Positions 29,255 through 61,374 of a stretch of 64,000 bases of DNA are shown one piece after another. This stretch comes from Pseudomonas sp. SJZ079. GTDB taxonomy: Bacteria; Pseudomonadota; Gammaproteobacteria; Pseudomonadales; Pseudomonadaceae. A program made the translations under genes and the position numbers. How positions within the stretch are numbered: position 1 is the first letter of the stretch; the number at the start of each line of letters is the position of its first letter. A model generated the notes under the pieces. It was not told where the DNA came from. It saw only the letters and a program-made list of their open reading frames with translations, and searched no databases. The stretch lies in contig NZ_VIUH01000003.1 of NCBI RefSeq assembly GCF_007993865.1, positions 124,001-188,000 on the forward strand, read 5' to 3'.

Positions 29255-30879
29255 GCATGGACAGGCAAAGCGCCCCGGCGAGCGCAACGATGCCGGAGCA
29301 CGCCTCGTTCTGGGCGCCGTTGCGCCACAAACTGTTCGTCGGGCTGTGGCTCGCTTGTGCGGTGGCCAACATGGCGATCTGGATGCAGACGGTCGGCGCC
29401 GCCTGGATCATGACCCTGTTGTCGGCCTCGCCCTTGATGGTTTCGCTGGTGCAAACCGCGATCACCCTGCCGGTGTTCCTGTTCGGTCTGCCGGGCGGGG
29501 TGCTCGCCGATCGCATGGATCCGCGACGCCTGCTGCTGTTCACCCAGTCGGCTATGCTCGGTGCGGCCGCTGTGCTCTGTCTGCTGGCCTGGTTCGACCT
29601 GCTGCAAGCCTGGTCGCTGCTGCTGTTCACCTTTGTCCTAGGCACCGGTAGCGCGCTGGGCATGGCAGCCTGGATGATCACGCTGGTCGGCGTGATCCCG
29701 CGCGAGCAGGTACCGGCGGCGGTATCGCTCAGCGGCATCTCGATCAATGCCACCCGCGCCCTGGGTCCGGCCCTGGCCGGCGCGCTCATCGCCTGGTGGA
29801 ACAGCGCTTCGGTGTTCCTGGTCATCGCCCTGTGCATGGCCCTGGTGATCATCTTCATCATCTGGCGTCTTCCAGCCAAAGCCCGTGTGGACGGTCTGCC
29901 GCCGGAAACCCTGGTCGGCGGCATGCGCAGCGGCCTGCGCTATATCCGTCACTCGACGGTGTTGTCCAGTGCGCTCAAGCAGGTGTTCGTCTTCACCAGT
30001 TGTGCCAGCGCACTCTGGGCGCTGATGCCGCTGGTGGCCAAGAACGAACTGGGCATGGACGCAGGTGGTTACGGCCTGCTGATGGCCTTCATGGGCGCCG
30101 GCGCGGTGCTGGCCGCCCTCGGCCTGACCAGTGTTTATCGCCGTTTCCCTCTGCGTCGGCTTATAGTCGCCGGCGCTTTCGCGTTCGCAGCGGCAACCCT
30201 GGCGGCAGCGCTGTCGCACAGCCAGGTAGTGGTCTGCGCGATGCTGCTGTTCGCCGGCATGGGCTGGATGGCGGTGAACGCAACTATCTCCACCGTGGTG
30301 CAGACCTATGCGGCGAACTGGGTGCGCGCCCGTGTCGCCTCGGTGTACCTCTTGGTACTGATGGGCTCGATGGCCGTGGGCGGCATCCTGTGGGGCGCAC
30401 TGGCCCAGTATCTGGGTCTGGAAAACAGTCTGTTGCTGTCGGCGTCGAGCATCCTGTTGGGGCTACTGGTGACCCGTCGCGGAAAGATTGTCATGGGCCG
30501 AGAAGCGGATTTCGCCGACGCCCAGCAGACCGACAAGCTGGTGCTGACGGGCGAAGTGTCCCATGGCGATGGGCCGGTTTGCGTGGAGATCAGCTACCGG
30601 GTGGGCGATGACGAGCGTGATGACTTTTTGTGCATCGTCTACGCCGTCGGCCAGTCACGGCGGCGCAACGGCGCACAGAACTGGCGACTGTATCGTGACC
30701 TCGCCGAAACCGATCACTACGTCGAGCGCTTCATCGTCGAGTCCTGGCTTGACTATCTGCGTCAGCAGGAGCGAGTGACCCTGGCCGATGAGAGCCTTGA
30801 GCGTAGCTTGTCCAGGTATCGTTTAGAGTCTCCGGAGCCCAGGCGTTATATCTACCAGTCCCCGGCAGGCATATTTTGA
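29251..30879 (+). CDS. ditE: MFS permease of the EntS-like (MFS_3) group with C-terminal cytosolic domain
   Basis: A 542-residue protein. The first roughly 410 residues form a 12-helix MFS unit with the loop GVLADRMDPRRLLL (about residue 83). The last roughly 130 residues are soluble and end in LSRYRLESPEPRRYIYQSP; this tail is common in the MFS_3 group and resembles an antibiotic-monooxygenase-like fold. ATG 29251 overlaps the ditD stop by four bases. It is taken as the dit-cluster permease ditE by position. Import or export is not decidable from sequence. Confidence 0.87.
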   Translation: MSMDRQSAPASATMPEHASFWAPLRHKLFVGLWLACAVANMAIWMQTVGAAWIMTLLSASPLMVSLVQTAITLPVFLFGLPGGVLADRMDPRRLLLFTQSAMLGAAAVLCLLAWFDLLQAWSLLLFTFVLGTGSALGMAAWMITLVGVIPREQVPAAVSLSGISINATRALGPALAGALIAWWNSASVFLVIALCMALVIIFIIWRLPAKARVDGLPPETLVGGMRSGLRYIRHSTVLSSALKQVFVFTSCASALWALMPLVAKNELGMDAGGYGLLMAFMGAGAVLAALGLTSVYRRFPLRRLIVAGAFAFAAATLAAALSHSQVVVCAMLLFAGMGWMAVNATISTVVQTYAANWVRARVASVYLLVLMGSMAVGGILWGALAQYLGLENSLLLSASSILLGLLVTRRGKIVMGREADFADAQQTDKLVLTGEVSHGDGPVCVEISYRVGDDERDDFLCIVYAVGQSRRRNGAQNWRLYRDLAETDHYVERFIVESWLDYLRQQERVTLADESLERSLSRYRLESPEPRRYIYQSPAGIF

Positions 30880-30985
30880 GCGAGATAAGCTGCTCGACTT
30901 GAAATCTCCATACTAAATTTACCGCGCCGCATTGTTCTCGGTATAGAATTGCGTTTGGCTCCCGCTACGCAAATCGAGAAACCTC

Positions 30986-31780
30986 ATGGACAGCTCCGAC
31001 CTAATAGACCTCAATGACGCTCGCAAGGCTGCCGGTGCGGTGACTGTCAAACCGGTCGCCAATGCGATTCGCATCCTCCGCCACCTGAGTCAGGTCGGAA
31101 CGCCCGAGCGTTCAGTGGACATTGCCCGCCGGCTTTCGATCAACCCCAGCACCTGTTTCAACATCCTGCGCACATTGGTGTTGGAGGACGTGGTCGATTT
31201 CAACCCAATGTCGAAACGTTATTCGGCTGGTGCGGGGCTGGCCCGCTTGGTCGAGCAGCTGGTCAGCCAAGGCCAGCGGGTGCAACTGGCCAAGCCATTG
31301 CTACAGAATCTGGCTGGGCGGCAGCGGGTGACGGTCACCTTGTGGCGGCGGGTTGGACCAGATCGTATCGTCATCGTCAGTTCCGCCGCCAGTCCGGCGG
31401 ATGTGCGAATCGACATGGCTGAAGGGCAGCGACTGCCAATGCTAATGGGGGCCAGCGGCCGATTGTTCGCTACCCAGGTCGATTTGGATGATCCAGATAT
31501 CCAGAGTAATTTCGAGCGAATTCGTTGGGCGCGTCCATTGCCGCTTGAGACTTACCGCGAGGAAGTGCGTTTGGCGGCGAGCCGCGGATGGGCGCTGGAC
31601 GATGGTCATTTTTCCGTCGGTATCCTGGCCGTGGCCGCACCAGTCTATTCGCCCTCCGGCACCATCGACTTCACCGTATCAGCCGTAATGTTCCGCGGTC
31701 AGCGCAATGAAGATGGGATCAAGGAGCTAGGTGAAGCGCTTGTTGAGTTCTGCTCGGAGCTCGCGACCGTGCTGTTTTGA
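30986..31780 (+). CDS. ditR: IclR-family transcriptional regulator
   Basis: A 264-residue regulator with an N-terminal winged helix (ALSIAR-like segment RSVDIARRLSINPSTCFNIL, about residues 45-64) and a C-terminal IclR effector domain including MLMGASGRLFAT and LDDGHFSVGILAVAAPVYS. The dit cluster encodes an IclR-type regulator, DitR, reported to influence ditA expression; the position agrees. It has its own 106-base upstream gap, in which I see no copy of the 23-base operator. It converges on ditF. Confidence 0.9.
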   Translation: MDSSDLIDLNDARKAAGAVTVKPVANAIRILRHLSQVGTPERSVDIARRLSINPSTCFNILRTLVLEDVVDFNPMSKRYSAGAGLARLVEQLVSQGQRVQLAKPLLQNLAGRQRVTVTLWRRVGPDRIVIVSSAASPADVRIDMAEGQRLPMLMGASGRLFATQVDLDDPDIQSNFERIRWARPLPLETYREEVRLAASRGWALDDGHFSVGILAVAAPVYSPSGTIDFTVSAVMFRGQRNEDGIKELGEALVEFCSELATVLF

Positions 31781-31809: not shown

Positions 31810-33003
31810 TCACTCCCTGACCAGCAGCAAACTACCACCCAGCGGCCCACCGCCTGCGGCGACCGCGGCGACCCGATGTTCGGCAGTCTGTCTTCCCTCG
31901 GCGCGCCCCCACAGCTGCAGGCATGCTTCGTGAACATAGCCCAGGCCGTGGGTGCGCCCGGCGGATAGTTGGCCGCCATTGGTGTTGATCGGCAGGTCGC
32001 CGTCCAGGGCAATTCGCTGTCCCCCTTCGACGAAGGCGCCGCTCTGACCCACAGGGCACAGCCCCAGCGCCTCCAGCCAGATCATGGTGAGAATCGAGAA
32101 CCCGTCATACAACTGGGCCGAATCGACGTCGCTGGGCGTGTAGTCGGTGCGTGCCCACATCATCCGGCCAACATCGAACGCCGCCATCTCGGTTAGCGAT
32201 ATCTGATCCCATGACCAGGGCTGGTTGAGCGCCGCGCCGATTGCCTCGATGCGAATCGGCGGATGACGTGTGTCCCGCGCGGCATCCCGGCGCGACAGGA
32301 CAATCGCGGTCGAGGCGTCGCAGTGCACGTCGCAATCGAACATCCGCAACGGTGTGGAAATCATCCGCGACTGCATGTAGTCGTCCATCGACATCGGTGT
32401 GCGGTAGATGGCCTTGGGATTACGTTGGGCGTTCTGCCGGCAGGTCAGGGCAATCTGGGCGAGTTGCTCCGGTTGCGTGCCATATTCATGAAAATGCCGT
32501 TGTGCATACAGGGCCATCAGGTTGATGCCGGACAGCACATTGAACGGCGTGAACCATTGCCAGGAATAGCTGCTGTCACGCCCTTGAGTCTTATTGCTGA
32601 GTGCGCCGGCCTGCTTGTTATGTACGCGTGCCGACGCCTCGGTAATGGTGCGGAACACCAGCACGTGGTTGCACAGTCCTGCGGCAATGGCCATGGCGCC
32701 ATTGATCAGCCCCGCAAGTGGGCCAGGACCTTCGTAGCCGCCGCCAAACCAGTTGACGTTCAACCCTAGGGCGCTCTTCAGGGCGCTGGGGCCGACCGGC
32801 GAAAAGGGATCGCCATTATTGTTATCGCCTGGCCAACAGGCCACGCCATCGATGTCGCTACGTTCGAGTCCGGCATCGGCGATGGCTTCCAGGCAGGCGT
32901 CGACGGTCAGGCGCATGGCCGATTTCGACGACGGGCGGCCCACTTCGGACTGTCCTATGCCGGTGATGGCGACCTCTTTCTCGTAGCGATGATCGAACAT
33001 CAT
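31810..33003 (-). CDS. ditF: Thiolase-fold protein lacking catalytic Cys, likely Ltp2-like aldolase
   Basis: A 397-residue SCP-x-type thiolase-fold protein. The segment where thiolases carry the nucleophilic Cys reads GYEGPGPLAGLINGAMAIA, without Cys, and the usual GHP box is replaced by GGQLSAGRTHGLGYVHEA. A Tyr lies in SAQLYDGFS. The same changes typify the Ltp2 group, which performs retro-aldol cleavage with a DUF35 partner in steroid side-chain degradation. The adjacent DUF35 gene overlaps its start by four bases, which supports a DitF-DUF35 complex with aldolase rather than thiolase activity. Confidence 0.85.
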   Translation of the reverse strand: MMFDHRYEKEVAITGIGQSEVGRPSSKSAMRLTVDACLEAIADAGLERSDIDGVACWPGDNNNGDPFSPVGPSALKSALGLNVNWFGGGYEGPGPLAGLINGAMAIAAGLCNHVLVFRTITEASARVHNKQAGALSNKTQGRDSSYSWQWFTPFNVLSGINLMALYAQRHFHEYGTQPEQLAQIALTCRQNAQRNPKAIYRTPMSMDDYMQSRMISTPLRMFDCDVHCDASTAIVLSRRDAARDTRHPPIRIEAIGAALNQPWSWDQISLTEMAAFDVGRMMWARTDYTPSDVDSAQLYDGFSILTMIWLEALGLCPVGQSGAFVEGGQRIALDGDLPINTNGGQLSAGRTHGLGYVHEACLQLWGRAEGRQTAEHRVAAVAAGGGPLGGSLLLVRE

Positions 33004-33398
33004 TGATCCCTTTCGAACAGTGGGAGCCAGACGTCCTCGACGTGGAGGAAGCTGACCCGTACCGGCATGTCTATGCGAACCGCGAGTGGGTCCATGCCTA
33101 CGACGTTACTGATGAAGCGAAGACCCGGCTGCTCGGCCAACTCGACAATCGCGACGACGTAAGGGACTTCGAGTTCGGCGATCCATGGCTGGTAGTTGAG
33201 CGTGTAGCTGAGCACCTTGCCCTTGCCGGAGACCGCGCGCGGCTCGACTTCCAGGCTCGCGCAATGCGGGCAGATCGGTCCCGGCGGATGGAAAAAATGC
33301 TCGCAGCCAAGGCAGCGGTGCATCAATAGTTCACCGTGCTCGCCACCTTGCCAGAAGGCGCGGTTGTCGGCGTTTAGGGCAGGCAATTTTCTAGGCAT
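33000..33398 (-). CDS. Zn-ribbon/OB-fold (DUF35) protein, partner of DitF
   Basis: A 132-residue protein. The rubredoxin-like zinc ribbon uses C29, C32, C43 and C46 (CLGC ... CPHC), followed by an OB-fold (SGKGKVLSYTLNYQPW ... VPYVVAIVEL). This is the usual two-part DUF35 layout of subunits that accompany thiolase-like aldolases and hydratases acting on CoA esters. Its stop overlaps the DitF start (ATGA), implying coupled synthesis. It is divergent from ditG, with a putative operator between. Confidence 0.9.
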   Translation of the reverse strand: MPRKLPALNADNRAFWQGGEHGELLMHRCLGCEHFFHPPGPICPHCASLEVEPRAVSGKGKVLSYTLNYQPWIAELEVPYVVAIVELAEQPGLRFISNVVGMDPLAVRIDMPVRVSFLHVEDVWLPLFERDQ

Positions 33399-33445
33399 CA
33401 GGCATTCCTGAGGAGGCGACGACTCATGGGATTACGTTAGCATTT

Positions 33446-33468
33446 GTACATATTTTTGAAAAGTGTCA
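33446..33468. promoter_or_regulatory. Putative dit-regulon operator (site 4), GTACA-N13-TGTCA
   Basis: T-GTACA-N13-TGTCA between the divergent DUF35/ditF and ditG operons. The ACA-N13-TGT core is kept; the outer bases of the right arm differ. The flank resembles the site before ditA1 (AAAAGTGTC in both). Confidence 0.45.
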
Positions 33469-33537
33469 TATTTTGTGCCTCCGTTCGGCTAGGCCTGGCC
33501 ATGGCCGCCCCGTAAACAAAACAAGAGGAACTTCACT

Positions 33538-34239
33538 ATGTCCCAGTCTTTGCAGGACAAGATTGTCATCATAACCGGCGGCTTCGGCGTCTTGGGCAGC
33601 AGCCTCGGCCAGCTGTTGCTGGAGCGTGGTGCGCGTGTCGCATTGCTCGACCGCGCCGATGCCCCCGCAGCGTTGCGCGACGTGCAGAACCTGCTGCCTT
33701 TGGGAGGCGTCGACCTGACGTCCGCGGACTCGGCCAAGGAGGCGCTGGCTCGCGTGGCCGAGCATTTCGGCCGCATCGATGGCCTGGTCAACGTGGCGGG
33801 CGGTTTTGCCTGGGAAACCCTGGAAGACGGCAGCCTGGAAACCTGGGACCGCCTGTACCAGATGAACTTGCGCACAGCCGTGGTCAGTTGCCAGGCGGCA
33901 CTGCCCCATCTGCTGGAAGCGTCAGCGGGCCGTATCGTCAATATCGGCGCGCTGGCCTCGCTGAAAGCCGTTCAGGGCATGGGCGCCTATGCTGCATCCA
34001 AGGCCGGGGTCGCGCGTTTGACCGAGGCGCTGGCCGAGGAGCTAAAGGATCGCGGTATTACAGTCAATGCGGTGCTGCCGAGCATTATCGACACGCCCAC
34101 CAACCGGGCGGACATGCCGGATGCCGACGCCAGTCGCTGGGTCTCGCCGGCAGCGCTGGCCGGGGTGATCGCCTTCCTCCTGTCGGATGACGCCGCAGTG
34201 GTGACGGGCGCCTGTCTGCCGGTGGCCGGGCGGGTATGA
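33538..34239 (+). CDS. ditG: SDR-family oxidoreductase
   Basis: A short 233-residue SDR. TGGFGVLG is the cofactor loop (about residues 14-21), NVAGGF replaces NNAG, and YAASK carries the catalytic pair (about residue 151). The C-terminus (GACLPVAGRV) is brief. A GAGGAA site precedes the start. It is first in a run with ditH and possibly ditA1A2. A role in oxidising a hydroxyl of the terpenoid or of a ring-fission product is inferred from context; the symbol is by order. Confidence 0.87.
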   Translation: MSQSLQDKIVIITGGFGVLGSSLGQLLLERGARVALLDRADAPAALRDVQNLLPLGGVDLTSADSAKEALARVAEHFGRIDGLVNVAGGFAWETLEDGSLETWDRLYQMNLRTAVVSCQAALPHLLEASAGRIVNIGALASLKAVQGMGAYAASKAGVARLTEALAEELKDRGITVNAVLPSIIDTPTNRADMPDADASRWVSPAALAGVIAFLLSDDAAVVTGACLPVAGRV

Positions 34240-34282: not shown

Positions 34283-35260
34283 ATGAGACTCGTGACCTTT
34301 ACCGATGGCGCGGGCTTCGAGCGTGCGGGCGCCTTGCTCGAGAACGATCAAGCTGTGCTCGATCTGCAGCAGGCCTACCGCACGTTGCAGGGGCGTGATA
34401 GCGCGCAGCTTGCCAGTGTGCTGGCGTTGGTCGAGGCCGGGGAGCCGGCGCTCGAACTGGCCCGCTCGTTGCTGGCGCAAGCGCCTGCAGACGCGGTTTT
34501 GCAGCGCTCCGCCGTGAAGTTGCGGGCGCCGATCCAGCCGCCACCGCAAATGCGCGACTGCTCCTGCTTCGAGTTGCATCTGCGGCAAAGCTTCGCTGCG
34601 GCGCGCCGGGCGCGAGCACTGCGTACACCGGATCCGGAAGCCACCTTGCGGGAAATGAACACCCGTGCCGACGATCGCGTTATTGAGACCTTCAACCGTC
34701 AGCCCATCTATTACAAATGCAACCGTTTCGCGGTCATCGGCATCGATGACGAATTCCAGTGGCCGAGTTTCAGCAAGGCGATGGACTACGAGTTGGAGTT
34801 CGGTTGCTACATTGGCAAGCGCGGCAAGGACATCAGTCGCGAGGATGCTCGCTCGCACATCGTCGGCTACACCATCTTCAACGACATGAGCGCACGGGAT
34901 GCCCAGGCCAAGGAGATGCCCGGCATGCTCGGTCCGGCCAAGAGTAAGGACTTCGACACCGGCAACATCATGGGGCCCTGCCTGGTGACGGCCGACGAAC
35001 TCGGCGATCCCTACGACCTGAATATGGTTGCGCGGGTCAATGGCGAGGAGTGGGGGCGCGGCAATACCCGGGACATGCGCTGGCGCTTCGAGGACGTCAT
35101 CGCTCATGTGTCGCGCTCGGAGACGCTGTACCCCGGCGAGTTTCTCGGCTCGGGTACGGTGGGCAACGGTTGCGGCCTGGAGCAGTTGCGTTACCTCAAG
35201 CCAGGCGATCTGGTTGAGCTGGAGGTCGATGGCATCGGTGTGTTGCGCACCCGCGTCTAG
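34283..35260 (+). CDS. ditH: Fumarylacetoacetate-hydrolase-family protein
   Basis: A 325-residue FAH-family enzyme, longer than DitD and DitM. MRLVTFTDGAGFERAGALL opens an N-terminal domain; the catalytic core contains DYELEFGCYIGKRG (about residue 170), YTIFNDMSARDAQ (about 196) and a late GEFLGSGTVGNGCG (about 286). Compared with DitD, the LGTG/LFTG element is GSGT, as in the fumarylacetoacetase-like branch. It probably hydrolyses a diketo product after ring opening. The symbol is by order. Confidence 0.87.
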   Translation: MRLVTFTDGAGFERAGALLENDQAVLDLQQAYRTLQGRDSAQLASVLALVEAGEPALELARSLLAQAPADAVLQRSAVKLRAPIQPPPQMRDCSCFELHLRQSFAAARRARALRTPDPEATLREMNTRADDRVIETFNRQPIYYKCNRFAVIGIDDEFQWPSFSKAMDYELEFGCYIGKRGKDISREDARSHIVGYTIFNDMSARDAQAKEMPGMLGPAKSKDFDTGNIMGPCLVTADELGDPYDLNMVARVNGEEWGRGNTRDMRWRFEDVIAHVSRSETLYPGEFLGSGTVGNGCGLEQLRYLKPGDLVELEVDGIGVLRTRV

Positions 35261-39476: not shown

Positions 39477-41108
39477 TCAGCGTTTCGAGACCTTGATGTC
39501 GGTGTCTTCGAGGTCCCAGGTGCCGGCTGTTTTTCCCTCGTCGCGCAACTGGTATTTCAGCACCCGGCCTTGCGGGTTCTTCGGCAGGCTGCTGCGGAAC
39601 TCGATGTAACGCGGCAGGGCGTAATAGGGCACCGAGTCGGTCGCCCAGCGAAATAGCTCTTCCGCTTCGAGTTGTGCGCCTTCGTGCAGTACCGCGGTCA
39701 CCTTGACGTCGTCCTCGCCCTTGTCGGAAGGCACGGCATGCACGGCGACTTCCGCTAACGCGGGATGCACGGCGAACGCGGCTTCCATCTCGAAACTGGA
39801 GATGTTTTCACCGCGGCGGCGCAAGTAGTCCTTTTTGCGATCGACGAAGTAGAAGAAGCCCTCGTCGTCGAACTTGCCGATGTCGCCGGTGTGCAGCCAC
39901 ATGTTGCGCATCAGTTTCAAGGTGTCTGCCGGGCGTTGCCAGTAGCCCTGGAACATGATGTCCGGGCGTAACGGCCGCACCACGATTTCGCCCGCGGTAT
40001 TGGCCGGGACTTCCACATCATTGTCGTCAACGATGCGCACATCGAAGTCGGCTATGCGTTTGCCGGAGGAACCTGGCGCGGCGTATTCGCCGGCTGCCAA
40101 CGAGGTGATCACGCAGGCCTCGGTGAGGCCGTAGCCGTTGCCGCCGACCAGGCGCGTACCAAAGCGTTCACGCCAGACTTTCTTGGTTTCCTCGGTGTAA
40201 GGGTTACCGCGTGCCGTGTGGATCTGGCCGAAACAGCGCTTCATGGCATCGTTGTCCGGCGCCTGAGCCAGTAGGCCGCCCATGCCGCCGAGGATCGAGG
40301 CGATGGTTGCGCCGGAGCGTTCCACTTCTTGCCAGAAGTTGGACACCGAGAAGCGCGGGAGGATGGCGGCACGCGCGCCAACTAGGATGCTGGCGATGAT
40401 GCTGACGCAGAGGGCGTTCATGTGGAACAACGGCAGCGGCGTGATGGTGACGTCGTTCTCGTTGGCCGGGCCTGCGCGCAGTTGCAGGCGGGCCAGGTTG
40501 CACATGAAGTTGTAGCTGATCATGCAGCCTTTCGACGGACCCGTGGTGCCCGAGGTGTAGATCAGACAGGCCAGGTCGGACGGCTCGGGCTTTGTGGCGA
40601 GCGGTGTGTCGTCATGACCGCGATGCTTTGCCAGTGGTGCGATCGGAATGCTGCAGGCGGGCGGTGTGTCGAGTTCGCCGCGGTAGAGAATCTGCTTCAC
40701 CGCGGTGAGCTGGTCGGCCAGGGGGGTCATGCGCGCCAGGTAAGCCGCTTCGCAAATGATCAGGGCCGTCCCTGTATCGGCTATCTGGTGGCGCAGGAAC
40801 TCGCCTTTGAGGGCAGTGTTGATAGGCACGCTGACTGCGCACAGCTTGTTGATCGCCAGCCAGCAGACGACCGCATCGATGTTGTTGTCCAGCATGGTCA
40901 AAACGGTTTCGCCGGCCTGGACGCCCAGAGCGGCCAGGGCGTTGGCCATTCTGGTTGAAAGTGAGTCAATTTCTGAGTAAGTGTGTAATTCTCCGCTGAA
41001 ATCAAGCAGGATTTTGTCTGGATGGCGTGCTACCGCTCGTTCGAGTGCTGCGATGACAGTGTCTCTTTCGCCCACTGCCCAAGTGTCTGGATGACCAGTA
41101 CCGCTCAT
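39477..41108 (-). CDS. ditJ: AMP-forming acyl-CoA synthetase (CoA ligase)
   Basis: A 543-residue ANL-superfamily enzyme. The P-loop LIYTSGTTGPSKGCM is at about residues 154-168, the adenylate motif GNGYGLTE near 300, and the hinge/C-terminal region has GDIGKFDDEGFFYFVDRKKD and the conserved late Lys before LRDEGK. ATG 41106-41108 is preferred because AAGGAG sits upstream; the longer frame lacks a site. It would activate the resin-acid carboxylate or a ring-fission acid as a CoA thioester. Divergent from ditK; symbol by order. Confidence 0.92.
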   Translation of the reverse strand: MSGTGHPDTWAVGERDTVIAALERAVARHPDKILLDFSGELHTYSEIDSLSTRMANALAALGVQAGETVLTMLDNNIDAVVCWLAINKLCAVSVPINTALKGEFLRHQIADTGTALIICEAAYLARMTPLADQLTAVKQILYRGELDTPPACSIPIAPLAKHRGHDDTPLATKPEPSDLACLIYTSGTTGPSKGCMISYNFMCNLARLQLRAGPANENDVTITPLPLFHMNALCVSIIASILVGARAAILPRFSVSNFWQEVERSGATIASILGGMGGLLAQAPDNDAMKRCFGQIHTARGNPYTEETKKVWRERFGTRLVGGNGYGLTEACVITSLAAGEYAAPGSSGKRIADFDVRIVDDNDVEVPANTAGEIVVRPLRPDIMFQGYWQRPADTLKLMRNMWLHTGDIGKFDDEGFFYFVDRKKDYLRRRGENISSFEMEAAFAVHPALAEVAVHAVPSDKGEDDVKVTAVLHEGAQLEAEELFRWATDSVPYYALPRYIEFRSSLPKNPQGRVLKYQLRDEGKTAGTWDLEDTDIKVSKR

Positions 41109-41287
41109 GACTTTTCTCCTTTGGAGGCTGCCCAGCCATTGGGAAGCTGCTTTTATTTTGAAGAGAGAATGCGATTCTAAATTCAAATTTACAAAATGTC
41201 TTCCTTAAAGAGTTGAACAAAAACAGGCAGTCCTGCCTAGGTCCTATGGTAATGTCACTTTTTTCAGCTTAATGAGTATGTTTATCC

Positions 41288-44312: not shown

Positions 44313-45218
44313 ATGAGCATGAATAAAGAAGAGAAAGTCGTAGTCGTTGGTGCTGGGCTTATGGGCACCGGCATCGCCCATGGGTTCGCCAGTTCCGGTT
44401 ACCCCACCTTGCTGGTGGACACTAATGCCGACTCGCTGACCCGCGCCAAGGACAGCATCGAAAGCATCCTCAGTGCTGGGGTCAAGCTCGGCAAAGTCTC
44501 CGAGGAGTCTGCGCAAGCATCCTTGGCGCGCCTGATTATCTGCCGTGATCTGAGCGAGGCCGCAACAGGTGCGCATTGGCTGGTCGAGACCGTCTCCGAA
44601 CAGTTGGCGGTGAAGAAGGCCGTGGTGACACAAGCGGAGCCGCTACTGGCTCCGGACGCGATCATTGCCACCAATACCTCGGCGTTGAGTGTGACCGAGA
44701 TCGCCGCTGCAGTGCCCAATCCCGATCGGGTCATCGGTATGCACTTCTTCAACCCGGTGCACAAGATGAAGCTCATCGAACTGGTGCGTGGCCTGGCCAC
44801 CAGCGACGAAACCGTGGCGCGCACCCGCGCGTTGTGCGACGCCATGGGCAAGACCTCGATCATCGTCAACGAGTCCCCTGGTCTGACCACCAGCCGCATG
44901 TCTGCACTGTTGGGCAACGAAGCTATGTACATGCTGCAGGAAGGCACCGCCAGTGCGGAGGATATCGATACCGCCCTGCGCCTGGGCTTCAACCACCCGA
45001 TGGGGCCGTTGGAACTGGGCGACCTGACGGGGTGGGATACCCGTCTGTCGGTACTGAAGTATCTGCATCAAGCGCTGGGCGAGAAATTTCGCCCCTGTCC
45101 GCTGATCATCAAGATGGTCGCGGCCGGTCGCCTGGGGCGCAAGACCGGGAGCGGCGTCTATCGCTATGAAGAGGGCAAGCAGGTGCCGAACTCCGGCCTC
45201 AAGGCGAGTGCCCTATGA
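44313..45218 (+). CDS. ditN: 3-hydroxyacyl-CoA dehydrogenase
   Basis: A 301-residue enzyme of the HAD family. The NAD motif VVVGAGLMGTGIAHGFA is at about residues 11-27, NTSALSVTEIA near residue 128, and the catalytic region GMHFFNPVHKMKLIELV (His about 145) with NHPMGPLELGDLTGWD in the C-terminal domain. It oxidises a 3-hydroxyacyl-CoA to the ketone for cleavage by the adjacent thiolase, whose start overlaps its stop. Confidence 0.92.
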   Translation: MSMNKEEKVVVVGAGLMGTGIAHGFASSGYPTLLVDTNADSLTRAKDSIESILSAGVKLGKVSEESAQASLARLIICRDLSEAATGAHWLVETVSEQLAVKKAVVTQAEPLLAPDAIIATNTSALSVTEIAAAVPNPDRVIGMHFFNPVHKMKLIELVRGLATSDETVARTRALCDAMGKTSIIVNESPGLTTSRMSALLGNEAMYMLQEGTASAEDIDTALRLGFNHPMGPLELGDLTGWDTRLSVLKYLHQALGEKFRPCPLIIKMVAAGRLGRKTGSGVYRYEEGKQVPNSGLKASAL

Positions 45219-46387
45219 GCGACATCGTGATCGTTGATGCCGTGCGTACGCCTGTCGGTCGTTTCCGTGGCAGCCTTGCCGGGGTGCGTGCAGATCACCT
45301 GGGGGCTCTGGTGCTCAAGGCATTGCTGGAGCGCACCGGCCTCTCGTCCGCGCAGGTCGATGACGTCATCTTCGGCTGCGTGACGCAGATCGGCGAACAG
45401 TCCGCCAACATCGCGCGCACCGCGTTGCTGGGGGCCGGCTGGCCGGTGAGTATCCCGGGCATGACCCTGGACCGCAAATGCGGTTCAGGCGAGGCAGCCG
45501 TGCATGCGGCAGTCGGCGCGATTGCCGCCGGCGCCGCCGATATTATCATCGCCGGCGGCGCGGAAAACATGAGCCGCGTACCCATGGGCAGTAACCGCGA
45601 GATCCATGGCGAAGCCTTCGGCTGGATGGCGGCCGAGCGCTATGAGCTGACCAGCCAGGGTGAGGCCGCCGAGCGGGTGGTGGACAAATGGTCGCTGAGC
45701 CGCGATGCACTGGATGATTATGCGTTCGCCAGCCATAGCCGCGCGGCACATGCCGCCGATGCCGGGTATTTCGATAATGAACTGGTGGCGGTACCGGTCG
45801 CGGAACTGCGCGAGCATTCGCTCACCGAGCCCACCAGCACGCTGCAAGCGGACGAGACCATTCGCCGCGACACCTCGCGGGAAAAACTGGCGACCCTGAA
45901 AACCAGCTTCCGCCCGGAAGCCGGCCGGATCACCGCCGGCAACTCCTCGCAGATTTCCGATGGCGCGGCTGCGCTGCTGTTGATGTCCGCAGATACCGCC
46001 AAGCGTCTGGGGCTGAAGGCCCGCGCGCGCATCCGTGCCTTCGCCACCGTCGGCGTGGATCCGACCTTGATGTTGACCGGTCCGATCGATGCCACCAGGA
46101 AGGTGCTGGATAAAGCAGGGCTGACGCTCGATGACATTGACCTGTTCGAAATCAACGAAGCCTTTGCCTCCGTACCGCTGGCCTGGATGCACGAGACCGG
46201 GGTTGCGCATGACCGGCTCAACGTCAACGGCGGGGCTATCGCCCTCGGTCATCCGCTCGGCGCCAGTGGTGCACGGTTGATGACCACCCTGTTGAACGAA
46301 CTGGAACGGCGGGGCGGGCGCTATGGTCTACAGGCCATCTGCTGTGCAGGTGGCCTCGGTACTGCGACCATCATTGAGCGGATCTGA
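45215..46387 (+). CDS. ditO: Acetyl-CoA acyltransferase (3-ketoacyl-CoA thiolase)
   Basis: A 390-residue classical thiolase. The nucleophile Cys89 is in LDRKCGSG, the acid/base His in NGGAIALGHPLGASG (about residue 348), and the second Cys in ICCAGGLG near residue 377. All catalytic residues are intact, in contrast to DitF. ATG 45215 overlaps the ditN stop by four bases. It performs the thiolytic step of side-chain or opened-ring degradation. Confidence 0.93.
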   Translation: MSDIVIVDAVRTPVGRFRGSLAGVRADHLGALVLKALLERTGLSSAQVDDVIFGCVTQIGEQSANIARTALLGAGWPVSIPGMTLDRKCGSGEAAVHAAVGAIAAGAADIIIAGGAENMSRVPMGSNREIHGEAFGWMAAERYELTSQGEAAERVVDKWSLSRDALDDYAFASHSRAAHAADAGYFDNELVAVPVAELREHSLTEPTSTLQADETIRRDTSREKLATLKTSFRPEAGRITAGNSSQISDGAAALLLMSADTAKRLGLKARARIRAFATVGVDPTLMLTGPIDATRKVLDKAGLTLDDIDLFEINEAFASVPLAWMHETGVAHDRLNVNGGAIALGHPLGASGARLMTTLLNELERRGGRYGLQAICCAGGLGTATIIERI

Positions 46388-46979: not shown

Positions 46980-47069
46980 AACTGGTGATGGGTTGAGCCT
47001 AAGATGACTAGCAATGAGCCGCTCTCTATGGGCCCCGTCATGGCTATGCACAACAAGAAGGAGACGAAC

Positions 47070-48344
47070 ATGTCCGAGCAAGAACAGAGCAACCTAGAGC
47101 AGGTCTTCGCCAATGTGGCGAGCAATTATCGCGGCGCCGATATCGACCTGCATGCCGTGTATCGCGACATGCGTCAAAACTCTCCTGTCTTGGAAGAGAA
47201 TTTCATGGCGCGCCTGGGAGTGCCCTCGATCGCCGGGCTCGACGTGAATCGCCCGACCTTCACCCTGTTCAAATACGATGACGTGATGGCGGTCATGCGC
47301 GATCACGTCAACTTCACCAACGGCTTCATCGCCGAGGGCCTGGGTTCCTTCTTCGACGGTTTGATCCTCACGGCGATGGACGGTGAGGCGCATAAGAACA
47401 TCCGGAATCTGCTGCAGCCGGTGTTCATGCCGGAGACGGTCAATCGCTGGAAAGAAACCAGGATCGATCGCGTCATCCGCGAGGAATACCTCAAACCCAT
47501 GGTGGCGAGTAAAGGCGCCGACATCATGGAGTTCGCCCTGCATTTCCCGATCCGCGTGATCTACGCATTGATCGGCTTTCCCGAGGACCGTCCAGAGGAC
47601 ATCCAACAGTACGCTGCTTGGGCGCTGGCGATTCTGGCGGGTCCGCAGGTCGATCCGGAAAAGGCCGCTGCCGCGCGCTCTGCCGCCATGGAGGCGGCCA
47701 AGGCCCTGTATGACGTGGTCAAGGTGGTGGTAGCACAGCGCCGTGAGGAGGGCGCAACGGGCGATGACTTGATCAGCCGGTTGATCCGCGCCGAATACGA
47801 GGGTCGCTCGCTGGATGACCACGAGATCGCCACCTTCGTCCGCTCGCTGCTACCGGCCGCGAGCGAGACCACCACCCGTACCTTTGGCACCCTGATGACC
47901 CTTCTGCTCGAGCGGCCGGAGTTGCTCGAACGCGTCCGCCAGGACCGCAGCCTGGTGGCCAAGGCGATCGATGAATCCGTGCGTTACGAGCCCGTCGCGA
48001 CCTTCAAGGTGCGTCAGGCGGACAAGGACATGGTGATTCGTGGTGTGAGCATTCCCAAGGGCGCGATGGTGTCGTGCATCGTGAGCTCGGCGAACCGCGA
48101 CGAAGACGCCTTTGAAAACGCCGATGTGTTCGATATCGACCGGCGCGCGCGGCCATCCTTCGGCTTCGGCTTCGGTACGCACATGTGTATCGGCCAGTTT
48201 GTTGCCAAGACGGAAATCAACTGTGCGCTCAATGCCATCCTCGACCTGATGCCCAACATCCGCCTGGACCCTTCCAAGCCCGCGCCGGAGATCATCGGTG
48301 CCCAGTTGCGTGGCCCGCACAATGTCCATGTGATCTGGGATTAA
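47070..48344 (+). CDS. ditQ: Cytochrome P450, CYP226-like, probable DitQ
   Basis: A 424-residue P450 starting at ATG 47070, which has AAGGAG upstream; the longer frame has none. The heme loop FGFGFGTHMCIGQF has Cys373. The I-helix reads LLPAASETTT, so the conserved Gly of AGxxT is Ser, unlike the paralogue at 14755. DitQ (CYP226A1) of BKME-9 is recalled to be needed for dehydroabietic acid use, probably at C7. It probably takes electrons from the ferredoxin pair at 21-22.8 kb, since none lies nearby. Confidence 0.9.
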   Translation: MSEQEQSNLEQVFANVASNYRGADIDLHAVYRDMRQNSPVLEENFMARLGVPSIAGLDVNRPTFTLFKYDDVMAVMRDHVNFTNGFIAEGLGSFFDGLILTAMDGEAHKNIRNLLQPVFMPETVNRWKETRIDRVIREEYLKPMVASKGADIMEFALHFPIRVIYALIGFPEDRPEDIQQYAAWALAILAGPQVDPEKAAAARSAAMEAAKALYDVVKVVVAQRREEGATGDDLISRLIRAEYEGRSLDDHEIATFVRSLLPAASETTTRTFGTLMTLLLERPELLERVRQDRSLVAKAIDESVRYEPVATFKVRQADKDMVIRGVSIPKGAMVSCIVSSANRDEDAFENADVFDIDRRARPSFGFGFGTHMCIGQFVAKTEINCALNAILDLMPNIRLDPSKPAPEIIGAQLRGPHNVHVIWD

Positions 48345-49930: not shown

Positions 49931-51079
49931 ATGTCTATCACTCAGTTCACTTACAGCAGAATCCCCGCCGAGGCAGAGTCACTTCGCCACGAGGTGCGGG
50001 AGTTCCTTCAGAACAATCTCGGCGACTACCCGACAACCGCCAGGGCGCAGTCCTGGATGGGTTTCGATGCGGCCTTCAGCCGCAAGCTCGGTGCCCGCGG
50101 CTGGGTCGGCATGGCGCTGCCCAAGCAATACGGCGGTGCCGCGGCAGGGCCGTTTGCCCGCTACGTGATCATCGAGGAGCTGCTGGCCGCGGGTGCACCG
50201 GTATCGGCGCATTGGATAGCAGATCGGCAGAGCGGTCCGTTGATCAACCGCTTTGGCACCGAGGCGCAGCGAGAGCGCTATTTGCCACCGATCTGCCGTG
50301 GCGAGAGCTACTTCTGTATCGGCATGAGCGAACCGAACTCCGGTTCCGACCTGGCCTCGATCAAGACCACGGCCACTCGTAACGATGGCGGTTGGCTGCT
50401 CAACGGGCAGAAGGTATGGACCACCAATGCCCAGCATGCGCAGTTCATGATTGCCCTGGTGCGTACCGGCGAAAAACAGGCCGCACGCCACGAGGGCATG
50501 TCGCAGTTCATCGTCGACCTGGGCCTGCCGGGAATCACCATCCGGCCAATTCGCGACCTGGCTGGCGGCGAGCATTTCAATGAAGTGTTCTTCGACAATG
50601 TCCAGCTCGATGCCGCGGCATTGATCGGTACCGAAGGCAAGGGCTGGGATCAGGTAACGGCGGAGCTGGCCTTCGAGCGCAGCGGTCCGGAGCGCTTCCT
50701 CAGTTGCATCGAGCTGCTCAAGACGCTGATCAGCGCTGTGGGTCGCCATCCCGATGCCCTGCAGAGCCGTGAAATCGGCCGTCTCAGTGCCAAGCTGTTG
50801 ACCCTGCGCAACATGTCGCTGTCGGTGACTGCACAGTTGGCAGCGGGCGAACACCCGGCTTGGGCCGCCTCCTGCGTGAAGGATTTGGGCAACCTGTTCG
50901 AACAGGAGATTCCCGAGGTCGCGCAGCTACTGCTGGAGGCCGAGCCTCGTCAGGCGGGCGGCAGCGAGCACGCCCAAGTCCTTGCCTACCTGACTCAGAT
51001 GGCACCGTCTTTCTCACTGCGCGGAGGCACCCGCGAAATCCTGCGCGGCATCATCGCGCGCGGAATGGGGTTGCGATAA
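49931..51079 (+). CDS. Acyl-CoA dehydrogenase family protein (subunit 1 of likely heteromer)
   Basis: A 382-residue flavoprotein. The middle-domain signature CIGMSEPNSGSDLASIKT is at about residue 122, WTTNAQHA near 160, and the C-terminal segment LRGGTREILRGIIARGMGL near 360. With the next gene, two bases later and lacking parts of these motifs, it resembles the alpha2beta2 FadE pairs of steroid degradation. It should introduce an alpha-beta double bond in a cyclic or branched acyl-CoA. Confidence 0.9.
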   Translation: MSITQFTYSRIPAEAESLRHEVREFLQNNLGDYPTTARAQSWMGFDAAFSRKLGARGWVGMALPKQYGGAAAGPFARYVIIEELLAAGAPVSAHWIADRQSGPLINRFGTEAQRERYLPPICRGESYFCIGMSEPNSGSDLASIKTTATRNDGGWLLNGQKVWTTNAQHAQFMIALVRTGEKQAARHEGMSQFIVDLGLPGITIRPIRDLAGGEHFNEVFFDNVQLDAAALIGTEGKGWDQVTAELAFERSGPERFLSCIELLKTLISAVGRHPDALQSREIGRLSAKLLTLRNMSLSVTAQLAAGEHPAWAASCVKDLGNLFEQEIPEVAQLLLEAEPRQAGGSEHAQVLAYLTQMAPSFSLRGGTREILRGIIARGMGLR

Positions 51080-51081
51080 TT

Positions 51082-52155
51082 ATGCGAGAACTATTCGAAT
51101 CGACCATCGAGCGTCTGCTCGCTGACCTGGCCACACCGGAATACGTGCTCGGCTGCGAAGGCGGCGAGTGGCCGGCCGAACTTTGGGCGGCTGTCGAAGA
51201 GTCCGGCTTCACGCTGGCGGCCGTGCCGGAATCCCTGGGCGGTGCCGAGGCCGGTTGGGCCGACCTCTACGTGTTGGCCCGCGCGGCGGGCCGCTTTGCC
51301 GCACCGATCCCACTGGGTGAAGCCCTATTGGGCAACTGGCTGCTCGGCAAGGCCGGCCTCGAGGCGCAGACCGGCATTCTTAGCTTCGCCGCTGAGGCCA
51401 ACCTGAGCCTGCGCGATGGTGCAGTGGTTGGCGCGCTGCATGACGTGCCTTGGGGCCGGCATGCGCAAACCCTGGTGGCCATCGCCGATCGCAACAGCGC
51501 GACACCGAGCGTGGTGCTGTTGTCCACCGCCAGTGCTGCCAGCCAGACGTTGAGCCTCAATGTGGCCGGTGAGCCGCGCGACAGTCTGCACTTCACGGGT
51601 GCCCAGGTGCTGGCCTGTGCGCCTTTGCCCGCGTCGCTGCCGACTGACGTGTTGCAGTTGGGTGGCGCCCTGCTGCGTTCGGCGCAGATCGCCGGTGCGC
51701 TGCATGCCCTGTTGGACATGACCTCGGGATACGCCAGCGAGCGTACCCAGTTCGGTCGCCCGATCGGGGCCTTCCAGGCGATTCAGCAGCAGTTAGCGGT
51801 ATTCGCCGAACAAGCCGCAGCGGCGGGTATTGCCGCGGAAGCCGCCTTCACCGAGTCGGATACGGTTTTTGCCACCTTTACCATCGCCGCAGCCAAGGTC
51901 AGTACCGCGGAAGCCGCCAGCGTTGGCGCTGGCATCGCGCACTCGGTGCACGGCGCCATCGGTTTCACCCAGGAGTACTCGCTGCACCTGTTGTCGCGGC
52001 GGCTGTGGGCTTGGCGCAGTGAGTTCGGTTCGGCGAGCCTGTGGAGTCAGCGCATCGGGCAAATGGTCTGCGGGGTGGGTGGCGAGGGCTACTGGCCGCT
52101 GTTGACCGGCCACGCGAGTCAACAGTTATGTACTCTTGAGAGGAAATCGGCATGA
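51082..52155 (+). CDS. Acyl-CoA dehydrogenase-like protein (subunit 2 of likely heteromer)
   Basis: A 357-residue member starting at ATG 51082; the longer frame overlaps the upstream gene. The N-terminal helical part (WAAVEESGFTLAAVPESLGGAEAG) and SERTQFGRPIGAFQAIQQQLA near residue 216 are conserved, but the substrate/FAD middle-domain motif (SEPxxGSD) is missing and the C-terminal motif is degenerate (VGGEGYW). That asymmetry is typical of one partner in heteromeric acyl-CoA dehydrogenases. The stop overlaps the hydratase start. Confidence 0.87.
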   Translation: MRELFESTIERLLADLATPEYVLGCEGGEWPAELWAAVEESGFTLAAVPESLGGAEAGWADLYVLARAAGRFAAPIPLGEALLGNWLLGKAGLEAQTGILSFAAEANLSLRDGAVVGALHDVPWGRHAQTLVAIADRNSATPSVVLLSTASAASQTLSLNVAGEPRDSLHFTGAQVLACAPLPASLPTDVLQLGGALLRSAQIAGALHALLDMTSGYASERTQFGRPIGAFQAIQQQLAVFAEQAAAAGIAAEAAFTESDTVFATFTIAAAKVSTAEAASVGAGIAHSVHGAIGFTQEYSLHLLSRRLWAWRSEFGSASLWSQRIGQMVCGVGGEGYWPLLTGHASQQLCTLERKSA

Positions 52156-52952
52156 GTCCCTTCCTGCAGATCGAGCGCGATGGCGGCATCGTCACCGTAC
52201 GCATGAACCACCCGGAAACTCGCAACGCGCTGACTTCACCGGAACAGATCCAGGAGTTCGTTGACCTCTGTGCCGAACTGCGCCGCGATCATTCGGTGAG
52301 AGTGATGGTGCTCACTGGCAACGGTAGCGCCTTTTGTGCCGGTGGCAACGTCAAGGACATGCGCGAGCGCGGCGGAATCTTCGCCGGCTCGCCGTATGAA
52401 TTGCGCAACAACTACCGCGACGGCATCCAGCGCATCCCGCTGGCGCTGTACGAGCTGGATATCCCGGTCATCGCCGCCGTCAACGGCCCGGCAATCGGCG
52501 CCGGTCTGGACTTGGCCTGTATGTGCGACATCCGCTTGGCTTCCAGTTCGGCGTTGTTTGCAGAAAGTTTCGTGCGCCTGGGGATCGTTCCCGGCGACGG
52601 TGGTGCCTGGCTGTTGCCGCGCATCATCGGTATTCCCAAGGCCAGCCTGATGGCCTTCACTGGCGACACCATTGACGCCGCCAAGGCGCTGGACTGGGGG
52701 TTGGTGGAGCAGGTCTGTACTCATGAGACCCTGCAGGCCGAGGCGCACGCGCTGGCCCAGCGTATCGCCAGCAACCCCGGGCACGCCCTGCGTCTGTGCA
52801 AACGCCTGCTGCGCGAAGGCCAGCACATGCGTCTGGATTCGCTGCTGGAGCTGTCTGCCGCCTATCAGTCGCTGGCCCATCACACGGAAGACCACCATGA
52901 GGCCGTCGTCGCCTTCATGGACAAGCGCAAGCCTGACTACCAGGACCGTTGA
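52152..52952 (+). CDS. Enoyl-CoA hydratase/isomerase family protein
   Basis: A 266-residue crotonase-fold enzyme. Oxyanion-hole elements GSAFCAGGNVKDM (about residue 59) and AVNGPAIGAGLDLACMCDIRLAS (about 111) are present, as is GIVPGDGGAWLLPRIIG. It differs from the hydratase at 8501 in the second Glu region (GDGGAW against GGGGTQ). ATGA overlap couples it to the dehydrogenase pair, so it likely hydrates their product. Confidence 0.9.
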   Translation: MSPFLQIERDGGIVTVRMNHPETRNALTSPEQIQEFVDLCAELRRDHSVRVMVLTGNGSAFCAGGNVKDMRERGGIFAGSPYELRNNYRDGIQRIPLALYELDIPVIAAVNGPAIGAGLDLACMCDIRLASSSALFAESFVRLGIVPGDGGAWLLPRIIGIPKASLMAFTGDTIDAAKALDWGLVEQVCTHETLQAEAHALAQRIASNPGHALRLCKRLLREGQHMRLDSLLELSAAYQSLAHHTEDHHEAVVAFMDKRKPDYQDR

Positions 52953-52981
52953 GACCACCAACCGAATTTGGAGTGATAGTT

Positions 52982-54106
52982 ATGCGTGCCGTTTTCCGAG
53001 AAGACCACAATATGTTCCGCGAAATGGCGCGGCGTTTCGTAGATCGCGAAATCGTTCCGCACCTACATGAATGGGAAAAAAATGGCATCGTGCCCAAGGA
53101 GGTCTGGCTCAAGGCCGGTGAACTTGGACTCCTGTGTTCGACCGTGCCAGAGGAGTATGGTGGCTCAGGCGGCGATTTCGGTCACTCGGCGGTAATGATT
53201 GAGGAGCTGGCCAGGGCTAACGCCACCGCAGTGGGTTTCACCACGCATTCGGAGATCGTCGCGCCCTACATCGTGGCCTACGGCAGTGAGGAGCAAAAGC
53301 TCAAGTGGCTGCCGCGCATGGTCAGCGGCGAGCTGATCGGGGTGATCGCCATGAGTGAGCCGGGCATCGGCAGCGATCTGCGATCCATGCGCACCCTGGC
53401 CCGCCGTGATGGCGACGACTACATCATCTCTGGACAGAAGACCTTCATCACCAACGGTGGCAACGCCGGGCTGATGGTCACCGCTACCAAGCTCGATCCG
53501 GCGGCCAAGGAGCTGACGCTGATCTGTATCGAGGAGGATCGCAAAGGTTTTTCCAAGGGCCGCCTGCTGGAGAAGATCGGCTTGAAGGGCCAGGACACCG
53601 CCGAGCTGTTCTTTGACGAAGTGCGGGTGCCGGCCAGCAATCGACTGGGCGAGGAAGGTCAGGGCTTCAAGTACCTCACTCACCAGTTGGCCTGGGAGCG
53701 CCTGATCATCGCCATTCGCGCGGCGCAGTCGATCCATACCCTGCTTGAAGAAACCATCGAATACACCCGTGAGCGCAAGGTGTTCGGCAAGCCGGTGCTG
53801 GACTTCCAGAACACCCGCTTCAAGCTCGCCGAGGCCAAGGCGCAGGCGACCATGCTGCGCGTGTTCGTCGACGATTGCCTGGCCAAAGTGATGCGCGGCG
53901 AGCTGGCGGCAGACACCGCGGCCATGGCCAAGCTGCTCGGCTCGGAGATGCAGGGCAAGCTACTCGACGAGTTCCTCCAATTGCATGGTGGCTATGGTTT
54001 CATGAGCGAGTACAAGATCAGCCGTGCCTGGGTAGACGCGCGGGTTGCCCGCATCTATGGCGGGACCTCGGAAATCATGAAGGAAATCATCGGCCGCACC
54101 CTTTAA
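52982..54106 (+). CDS. Acyl-CoA dehydrogenase (FadE-type)
   Basis: A 374-residue, full-motif acyl-CoA dehydrogenase. ISGQKTFITNGGNAG (about residue 149), MSEPGIGSDLRSM (about 123), RKVFGKPVLDFQNTRFKLAE (about 262) and the C-terminal YGGTSEIMKEIIGRTL are present, the last being the usual acyl-CoA dehydrogenase end. ATG 52982 is taken; an in-frame GTG further up overlaps the hydratase. It is probably a homomeric enzyme for a different chain or step than the upstream pair. Confidence 0.9.
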   Translation: MRAVFREDHNMFREMARRFVDREIVPHLHEWEKNGIVPKEVWLKAGELGLLCSTVPEEYGGSGGDFGHSAVMIEELARANATAVGFTTHSEIVAPYIVAYGSEEQKLKWLPRMVSGELIGVIAMSEPGIGSDLRSMRTLARRDGDDYIISGQKTFITNGGNAGLMVTATKLDPAAKELTLICIEEDRKGFSKGRLLEKIGLKGQDTAELFFDEVRVPASNRLGEEGQGFKYLTHQLAWERLIIAIRAAQSIHTLLEETIEYTRERKVFGKPVLDFQNTRFKLAEAKAQATMLRVFVDDCLAKVMRGELAADTAAMAKLLGSEMQGKLLDEFLQLHGGYGFMSEYKISRAWVDARVARIYGGTSEIMKEIIGRTL

Positions 54107-61068: not shown

Positions 61069-61374
61069 ATGGACAGAAAAACAGCGAGGCTGTGCCTCCG
61101 AATAACTCCCAGCGACAAGCAATTGATCTTCGCCAAAGCGAGCGATCTCCAACTCAGCGTTGCCGATTGGCTGGTCAGGGCGGCTCTAGATCGTGAAATC
61201 ATCCCGCCGCGATCCGTTTGGGATGCTGAATCGATCAGCCAGTTGTCCCGTATTGGCAACAACCTCAATCAGCTGGCTTATTGGGCTAATAGCGGAATGC
61301 TGGTGGACGACTCCGCCTTGCGTGAAATCGCAGCCGAGCTGCGCTTTCTACGAGGCTTGTCTGATGATCTTTAA
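61069..61374 (+). CDS. mobC: MobC-like relaxosome accessory protein
   Basis: A 101-residue protein starting at ATG 61069, with AAGG eight bases upstream. It has a ribbon-helix-helix-like N-terminus (RLCLRITPSDKQLIFAKASDLQLSVADWLVRAAL) and the MobC signature LSRIGNNLNQLAYWANSG (about residues 64-81). MobC proteins bind oriT and assist relaxase nicking. The stop lies inside the start of the relaxase gene (11-base overlap), so the two are coupled. Confidence 0.88.
   Translation: MDRKTARLCLRITPSDKQLIFAKASDLQLSVADWLVRAALDREIIPPRSVWDAESISQLSRIGNNLNQLAYWANSGMLVDDSALREIAAELRFLRGLSDDL

Follow-up and report, generated by a model that had tools for sequence, protein, structure and literature searches.

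DitF and its DUF35 partner in Pseudomonas sp. SJZ079, a putative cysteine-free thiolase-fold lyase of the resin-acid pathway

Introduction

Two described aldolases share a thiolase fold without the nucleophilic cysteine and a DUF35 partner, namely Ltp2-ChsH2(DUF35), the steroid side-chain aldolase of Thermomonospora curvata (structure 6ok1), and Sal-Shy(DUF35), the bile-acid aldolase of Comamonas testosteroni (9myr). Here they are compared with DitF and the adjacent DUF35 protein, which are encoded in a stretch of 64,000 nucleotides from Pseudomonas sp. SJZ079 (contig NZ_VIUH01000003.1, positions 124,001 to 188,000), hereafter the window. Another Cys-less protein, the 'putative thiolase' 4u4e of Sphaerobacter thermophilus, has to our knowledge no assigned function. 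The fold is also common to the BbsAB benzoylsuccinyl-coenzyme A (CoA) thiolase (7pxp) and the archaeal acetoacetyl-CoA thiolase (6esq), but unlike DitF both have the nucleophile Cys and the His of the GHP box. According to PMC12329534, the catalytic base is Tyr294 in Ltp2 and Tyr302 in Sal, the acid is Tyr344 in Ltp2 and Cys304 in Sal, and activity was not detectable in the Sal variants Y302F, C304A and C304S.

DitF fits the DUF35-partnered, Cys-less thiolase-fold group, having no nucleophile Cys, a Tyr in the motif YDx[FY], and a DUF35 protein that is adjacent or fused. We consider the pair to be a putative Cys-free thiolase-fold lyase of C-C bonds in CoA thioesters, most likely a retro-aldolase that depends on DUF35 and represents a third catalytic type, with a probability of about 0.6; as part of this reading, the DUF35 chain would complete DitF as ChsH2(DUF35) completes Ltp2. 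No paper among those listed in a literature search, which covered few subscription papers, was seen to propose an aldolase role for DitF. The dit names of the window genes in part follow a preliminary description of this DNA.

The DUF35-ditF gene pair

31810..33003, minus strand: DitF, 397 amino acids, Cys-less thiolase-fold protein (open reading frame, Pfam, structure model)
33000..33398, minus strand: DUF35 partner, 132 amino acids, C4 zinc ribbon plus OB fold (open reading frame, Pfam)

The DUF35 gene overlaps the ditF start by 4 nucleotides (ATGA) and contains AAAGGG immediately ahead of that start. The preliminary description had called the partner 'fused by overlap'; the overlap is there, but in the window these are two overlapping genes and not a fusion, and as compared with Ltp2-ChsH2 the DUF35 is a separate protein of 132 residues. 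Pfam assigned Thiolase_C_1 to DitF, and zf-ChsH2 and OB_ChsH2_C to the DUF35 protein, which is the single OB_ChsH2_C match in the whole genome; a genome-wide search with DitF likewise returned only itself at E <= 0.001. DitF is 98% identical to the DitF of P. borbori.

For locus comparison, 80 of the 125 genome relatives of DitF were kept. In all 80, a DUF35 gene stands immediately upstream of ditF on the same strand, the overlap of 4 nucleotides recurs in 58 by predicted starts, and all four zinc cysteines of DUF35 are present in 79, the exception (L031) being cut by a contig end. Moreover, single-protein DUF35::DitF-type fusions occur among more distant relatives, in Streptomyces sp. NBC_00080 (561 amino acids), Rhodococcus oxybenzonivorans (537) and Rhodococcus sp. 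BH4 (551). Among the 15 plasmid relatives that share a residue set with DitF (see below), DUF35 is adjacent or fused in 14, three of them fused, while no DUF35 gene was found beside the DitF relative of M. branderi within the 2 kb examined. The universal adjacency in the 80 loci and the natural fusions are strong evidence, at the level of sequence, that DUF35 and DitF work as a functional unit. In addition, the best solved relatives of DitF and of the DUF35 protein belong to a single complex, 6ok1, as its two chains (E 7e-55 and 2e-26), and by these comparisons the kinship together with the adjacency is more than chance. The DUF35 protein is also related to the DUF35 chain 6esq_E of the archaeal thiolase complex, and gave a weak match to the BbsA model. 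The fusions, which lie on Streptomyces and Rhodococcus plasmids (L167:11503-13188; L173:7542-9155; L178:1524-3179), are annotated merely as 'OB-fold domain-containing protein'.

The active site of DitF

32719..32736, minus strand: Y90-E-G-P-G-P95, the former nucleophile loop, with G92 at the position of the thiolase Cys (alignment)
32329..32331, minus strand: Asp225, a member of the D225/G301/R350 set (alignment, tree)
32098..32109, minus strand: motif Y299-D-G-F302, which is HDxF in thiolases, YDHF in Ltp2 and YDCY in Sal (alignment)
31945..31959, minus strand: G349-R-T-H-G353, the former GHP box, with R350 corresponding to Ltp2 Tyr344 and Sal Gln352, and H352 to Ltp2 His346 (alignment)

The active-site alignment held 81 DitF proteins (the window and 80 loci; 73 distinct sequences), 69 relatives and seven solved proteins. 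Sampling 299 genomes of the phylum gave 80 places outside the window, and 69 of these supplied the relatives. HD-type thiolases make up twelve rows (8 relatives and 4 solved proteins), and the remaining 64 non-DitF rows are Y-type. The preliminary description had noted a nucleophile segment without Cys and a changed GHP box, and both statements held: the nucleophile column is Gly92 in 81/81 DitF and Cys in 12/12 HD-type thiolases, and the column of the GHP-box His is Arg350 in all 81 DitF and His in all 12 thiolases. The HDxF position reads Y299-D-G-F in every DitF. A Tyr at the H of HDxF is found in the 64 Y-type rows as well, whose nucleophile column holds 63 Gly, one Gln and no Cys. By a phmmer alignment to 6ok1_A, with numbers counted along the alignment, Y299 corresponds to Ltp2 Tyr294, R350 to Tyr344 and H352 to His346.

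By these alignments, DitF retains the base Tyr of Ltp2 and Sal and has neither of their acids. It resembles Ltp2 in the Tyr base within YDxF, in the His at 352 and in lying in the same starred clade, whereas Ltp2 combines YDHF and Tyr344 with a Cys at the position of Asp225, and DitF has YDGF, Arg350 and Asp225. Thus, among the traits of the Ltp2 subfamily, the equivalent of Tyr294 is present (Y299), and the acid Tyr344 and His296 are absent (R350, G301). With Sal, DitF has in common the Cys-less nucleophile site, the Tyr (Y302, essential in Sal) and the DUF35 partner; Sal differs in its clade and, as given in PMC12329534, in Cys304 as acid, Gln352 and a C3H1 zinc site, and the Cys304 of YDCY that marks its subfamily is G301 in DitF. 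The protein 4u4e is similar in being Cys-less, in its YDSF motif and, to a high degree, in its fold, but it retains the GHP-type His and belongs to a different clade.

A genuine thiolase, as the database names of relatives say, would agree with the thiolase fold, with the Pfam match Thiolase_C_1 and with the product name of close relatives. This identity is rejected on the residues, because the nucleophile Cys and the GHP His are missing in 81/81 DitF and HDxF is replaced; the cluster, moreover, already holds a complete thiolase (45215-46387), and we regard a thiolase identity of DitF as very improbable. The preliminary description had taken thiolase for the usual annotation of DitF, which is right for the plasmid records, where close relatives are named 'thiolase family protein', but not for the dit-cluster papers, which name it 'sterol carrier-like' (PMC12628601, PMC13063091). 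That older name and the lack of a known donor residue could point to a non-catalytic role, as a carrier of acyl-CoA or sterols or as a scaffold. However, the positions of the active-site loops are invariant in 81 copies, and ditF insertion mutants failed to grow on several resin acids, including dehydroabietic, abietic and palustric acids (PMC13063091); although an essential carrier would show the same growth defect, we consider this explanation improbable.

Glu91 is found in 81/81 DitF and in 0/76 other aligned proteins, and the set-bearing plasmid relatives have it in 11 of 15 cases. It and Arg350 are charged residues that are new to the former nucleophile loop and the former His position, where they might activate water or hold an enolate, so that DitF could cleave C-C bonds otherwise, by Cys-free retro-Claisen hydrolysis or by decarboxylation of a β-ketoacyl-CoA. 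TbSLP, which is related but lacks the thiolase cysteines, is quoted in PMC12329534 as decarboxylating malonyl-CoA slowly, but the same source has Sal failing to do so. Furthermore, four of the 15 set-bearing plasmid relatives have M, N, D or S in place of Glu91, and among solved proteins DitF is closest in sequence to an aldolase. Chemistry of this kind is conceivable but unlikely, and retro-aldol cleavage is preferred.

A clade defined by Asp225, Gly301 and Arg350

A tblastn search of plasmid records gave 106 with relatives, of which 17 were fetched for comparison. Asp225, Gly301 and Arg350 occur together in 81/81 DitF and in 15 of these 17 (14 with YDGF and one with YDGI), while no member of the set is present in the other 78 proteins (76 aligned and 2 plasmid-borne). 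His352 is found in 95 of the 96 set-bearing proteins, the exception being Asn in R. oxybenzonivorans. The hosts of the 15 belong to Sphingomonas, Sphingobium, Sphingopyxis, Caulobacter, Massilia, Mycobacterium, Streptomyces and Rhodococcus. The view that Gly301 and Arg350 are private to DitF (0/76 others) was too narrow, since plasmid relatives at 42-53% identity share the set.

In a first tree, 13 DitF formed one long branch within a starred clade including Ltp2 (98/96). In a second tree of 68 rows, from which the trait columns were left out, all 23 set-bearing rows formed one starred clade (100/99), which was nested in a starred clade (98/96) together with Ltp2, the YENF group and YD[AC]F proteins. 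The nine non-set rows of this Ltp2-containing clade are all Y-x-H, where DitF is R-x-H. As judged from these trees, the set-bearing proteins are a well-supported clade next to Ltp2 that extends into the Actinobacteria. Other Cys-less Y-type groups were also seen across the phylum (L083-L151), most with a DUF35 neighbour, having YDAF, YDSF, YDCF, YDDF, YDDY or YENF, and could be several putative catalytic variants.

Predicted fold

Structure prediction and comparison with Ltp2-DUF35 complexes, which the preliminary description had proposed as a check, supported membership of the DUF35-partnered, Cys-less group, with a model of moderate quality. The AlphaFold2 model of DitF (m084f7d222c85), built on 29 DitF sequences, was the best of five runs with mean pLDDT (predicted local distance difference test) values of 73.8, 65.8, 40.2, 37.5 and 34.2, and had a predicted template modelling score of 0.81. 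VIA-align placed 6ok1 first (Z 43.1, root-mean-square deviation 3.4, 368 aligned), followed by Sal-DUF35 9myr (41.6), 4u4e (41.1), 6esq_A (40.7) and 7yvy_B (40.1), and the classical thiolases had Z near 30.

Proposed reaction

The carboxyl C18 of resin acids sits on the quaternary C4 of ring A, which bars a C18-CoA ester from ordinary β-oxidation, and their isopropyl side chain has no carboxyl group. The C18 carboxyl is the more sensible target for a CoA thioester for the latter reason, and by the same chemical reasoning the removal of a side chain by DitF, which the preliminary description had considered, is weak for the isopropyl group and is judged unlikely. The Ltp2 substrate has a tertiary ring hydroxyl beside an α-methyl acyl-CoA; by analogy, DitF may act on a 5-hydroxy resin acid whose C18 carboxyl is bound as a CoA thioester. 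The genes concerned are as follows.

33538..34239, plus strand: DitG, short-chain dehydrogenase/reductase (SDR), divergent from DUF35-ditF (Pfam)
34283..35260, plus strand: DitH, FAH family (Pfam, NCBIfam)
39477..41186, minus strand: DitJ, acyl-CoA ligase, candidate maker of the C18-CoA ester (Pfam)
44313..46387, plus strand: 3-hydroxyacyl-CoA dehydrogenase and the complete thiolase with Thiolase_N and Thiolase_C (Pfam/NCBIfam)
49931..54106, plus strand: three acyl-CoA dehydrogenases and an enoyl-CoA hydratase (Pfam/NCBIfam)

DitJ would make the C18-CoA thioester, and the 5-hydroxyl would come from a cytochrome P450 or a crotonase, since no match to the MaoC model PF01575 lies on the contig. 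Tyr299 would then remove the proton from the β-hydroxyl and the α-β carbon bond would break, the thioester enolate being stabilised by Arg350, which Asp225 perhaps holds in place, and a proton would be given by His352 or Glu91 in place of Tyr344 of Ltp2 or Cys304 of Sal. Breaking C4-C5 by such a retro-aldol reaction would open ring A and yield a 5-ketone and a 2-methylacyl-CoA tail, both in one molecule, and the tail could be taken by the β-oxidation enzymes of the cluster. With a 7-oxo group, the product would be a 5,7-β-diketone, which would fit an FAH-type substrate for DitH. It is a tentative and rather doubtful extension that DitF is the type member of a third class (Tyr base, Asp225-Arg350, RxH for YxH; Proteobacteria and Actinobacteria), which would cleave C4-C5 of the 5-hydroxy-C18-CoA and pass the 5,7-β-diketone to a ring-B-opening DitH. 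PMC13063091 reports 5-hydroxy-dehydroabietic acid as a transient metabolite of P. abietaniphila, with 5-hydroxy-7-oxo and other 5-hydroxy compounds accumulating later, and in the parts considered draws no link of these metabolites to DitF.

Several observations weigh against a retro-aldolase reading. Both known proton donors are missing in DitF (Ltp2 Tyr344 is Arg350, and Sal Cys304 is Gly301), so the activity of Ltp2 is not simply transferable and a plain transfer of its mechanism is ruled out. The model has pLDDT below 50 at residues 1-5, 60-66, 123-157, 213-227 and 343-351, stretches that include Asp225 (213-227) and Arg350 (343-351). The Z of the Cys thiolase 6esq_A is just 0.4 under that of 4u4e and 2.4 under that of 6ok1, and in Foldseek the Cys-less 'putative thiolase' 4u4e ties with 6ok1; because of this, the modelled fold backs membership of the group but cannot on its own tell aldolase from thiolase. 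MaoC (PF01575, the single MaoC model used) has four matches in the genome and none on the window's contig, and a MaoC-partner model of the Shy or ChsH1-H2 type was set aside for DitF. Finally, the 5-hydroxy compounds 6-8 build up and persist (PMC13063091) and could equally be dead ends. Thus, the probable Ltp2-like aldolase of the preliminary description stands in so far as DitF is Cys-less, partnered by DUF35, in the same clade as Ltp2 and nearest among solved proteins to Ltp2-DUF35, whereas its activity cannot be carried over from Ltp2 as such.

Context of the gene cluster

The pair is flanked by an IclR-type ditR on the plus strand and by the divergent ditG and ditH, and the intergenic stretch by the DUF35 gene (33380-33545 searched) has just short, imperfect inverted repeats. 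The best-scoring named relatives of DitH are 2,4-diketo-3-deoxyrhamnonate hydrolases, with all scores below the NCBIfam cut-offs, which is a family hint only. Around the 80 DitF loci, in stretches several of which are cut by contig ends, tblastn at 40% identity or more matched DitH in 76, DitA1 in 69, DitG in 67 and DitC in 56. Twelve DitF genomes picked for diversity were searched for DitJ, DitA1, DitC and P450: a close homologue of DitJ (at least 59%) is in 12/12, and close DitA1, DitC and dit-type P450 are in 11/12 each, the exception being the Caulobacter metagenome-assembled genome (MAG) G302. Homologues of the genes at 49931..54106 lie near DitF in Caulobacter G302, in Sphingomonas G304 and on the plasmid of Caulobacter FWC26.

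The nearness of DitF to ring-C genes in most loci (DitA1 69/80, DitC 56/80) could mean that it is a retro-aldolase acting on the ring-C cleavage product and not on the ring-A C18-CoA, and the FWC26 plasmid, whose DitF is 70% identical, carries DitA1 (61%) and P450 (49%) in the same region. In contrast, a 663-kb contig of G302 groups DitF, DUF35, DitJ, DitH, an amidohydrolase and β-oxidation genes in some 26 kb, the latter comprising homologues of the window's three acyl-CoA dehydrogenases and two enoyl-CoA hydratases, together with a hydroxyacyl-CoA dehydrogenase and a thiolase. Ring-C genes were not found in the 60 kb read, and the best-scoring DitA1, DitC and P450 matches of G302 had 36%, 31% and 27% identity. 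The separability of DitF from ring C comes from this one MAG, of uncertain completeness, and is weakened by the FWC26 plasmid; even so, a ring-C substrate seems rather improbable to us, and the ring-A C18-CoA ester is preferred as the candidate substrate.

As to other genes of the cluster, the window has P450 genes at 14755-16044 and 47004-48344, one of which may be a C5-hydroxylase. Of the 12 DitF genomes, eight have two P450 copies that are at least 58% identical to the 47004 protein and three have one at 53-55%, and G302 has distant matches only (at most 33%). An amidohydrolase-family gene adjoins the DitF-type gene, or is one gene from it, at L164:16272-17621, L168:13957-15234, L174:181-1338 and L178:50-1240. 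Three Amidohydro_2 (PF04909) genes occur in the window, and the amidohydrolase-family gene at 48516-49823 has 54% identity in Sphingomonas paeninsulae and 74% in Caulobacter G302; an amidohydrolase by DitF may act on the product of DitF or DitH. A CrtO/CrtI-like FAD oxidoreductase at 12993-14651, directly ahead of a P450 gene, could serve a putative redox step, and its best NCBIfam match, beta-carotene ketolase CrtO, is far below the cut-off. The 343-residue protein of 16105-17136, between P450 and SDR, had no Pfam or NCBIfam match at E 0.001. In S. paeninsulae, a second DUF35 gene shares the region of the DitF-type pair and lies near AtuA-family (acyclic terpene utilization) genes (L164:26776-27186 and 29848-31092). 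A MobA/VirD2-like relaxase gene (PF03432) lies at the window end (61193-63706), and DitF relatives are also plasmid-borne, one plasmid (Caulobacter FWC26) being typed conjugative; the dit cluster may lie on or beside a mobile element.

Implications

According to PMC13063091, the products of the resin-acid pathway were known before 2026 no further than the ring-C dihydrodiol, and the newly reported metabolites have no enzymes assigned. With DitF-DUF35 as a likely CoA-dependent retro-aldolase, a β-hydroxyacyl-CoA substrate and a ketone product should be looked for, and not thiolysis. The 'thiolase family proteins' of the DitF-type clade in Rhodococcus, Mycobacterium, Streptomyces and sphingomonads are probably mis-named. 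The DUF35-dependent aldolases would thereby come to include enzymes for diterpenoids besides those for steroids, the catalytic set being a different one, and if ring A is indeed opened by DitF, this would be the entry step past the quaternary C4 for the lower half of the abietane pathway.

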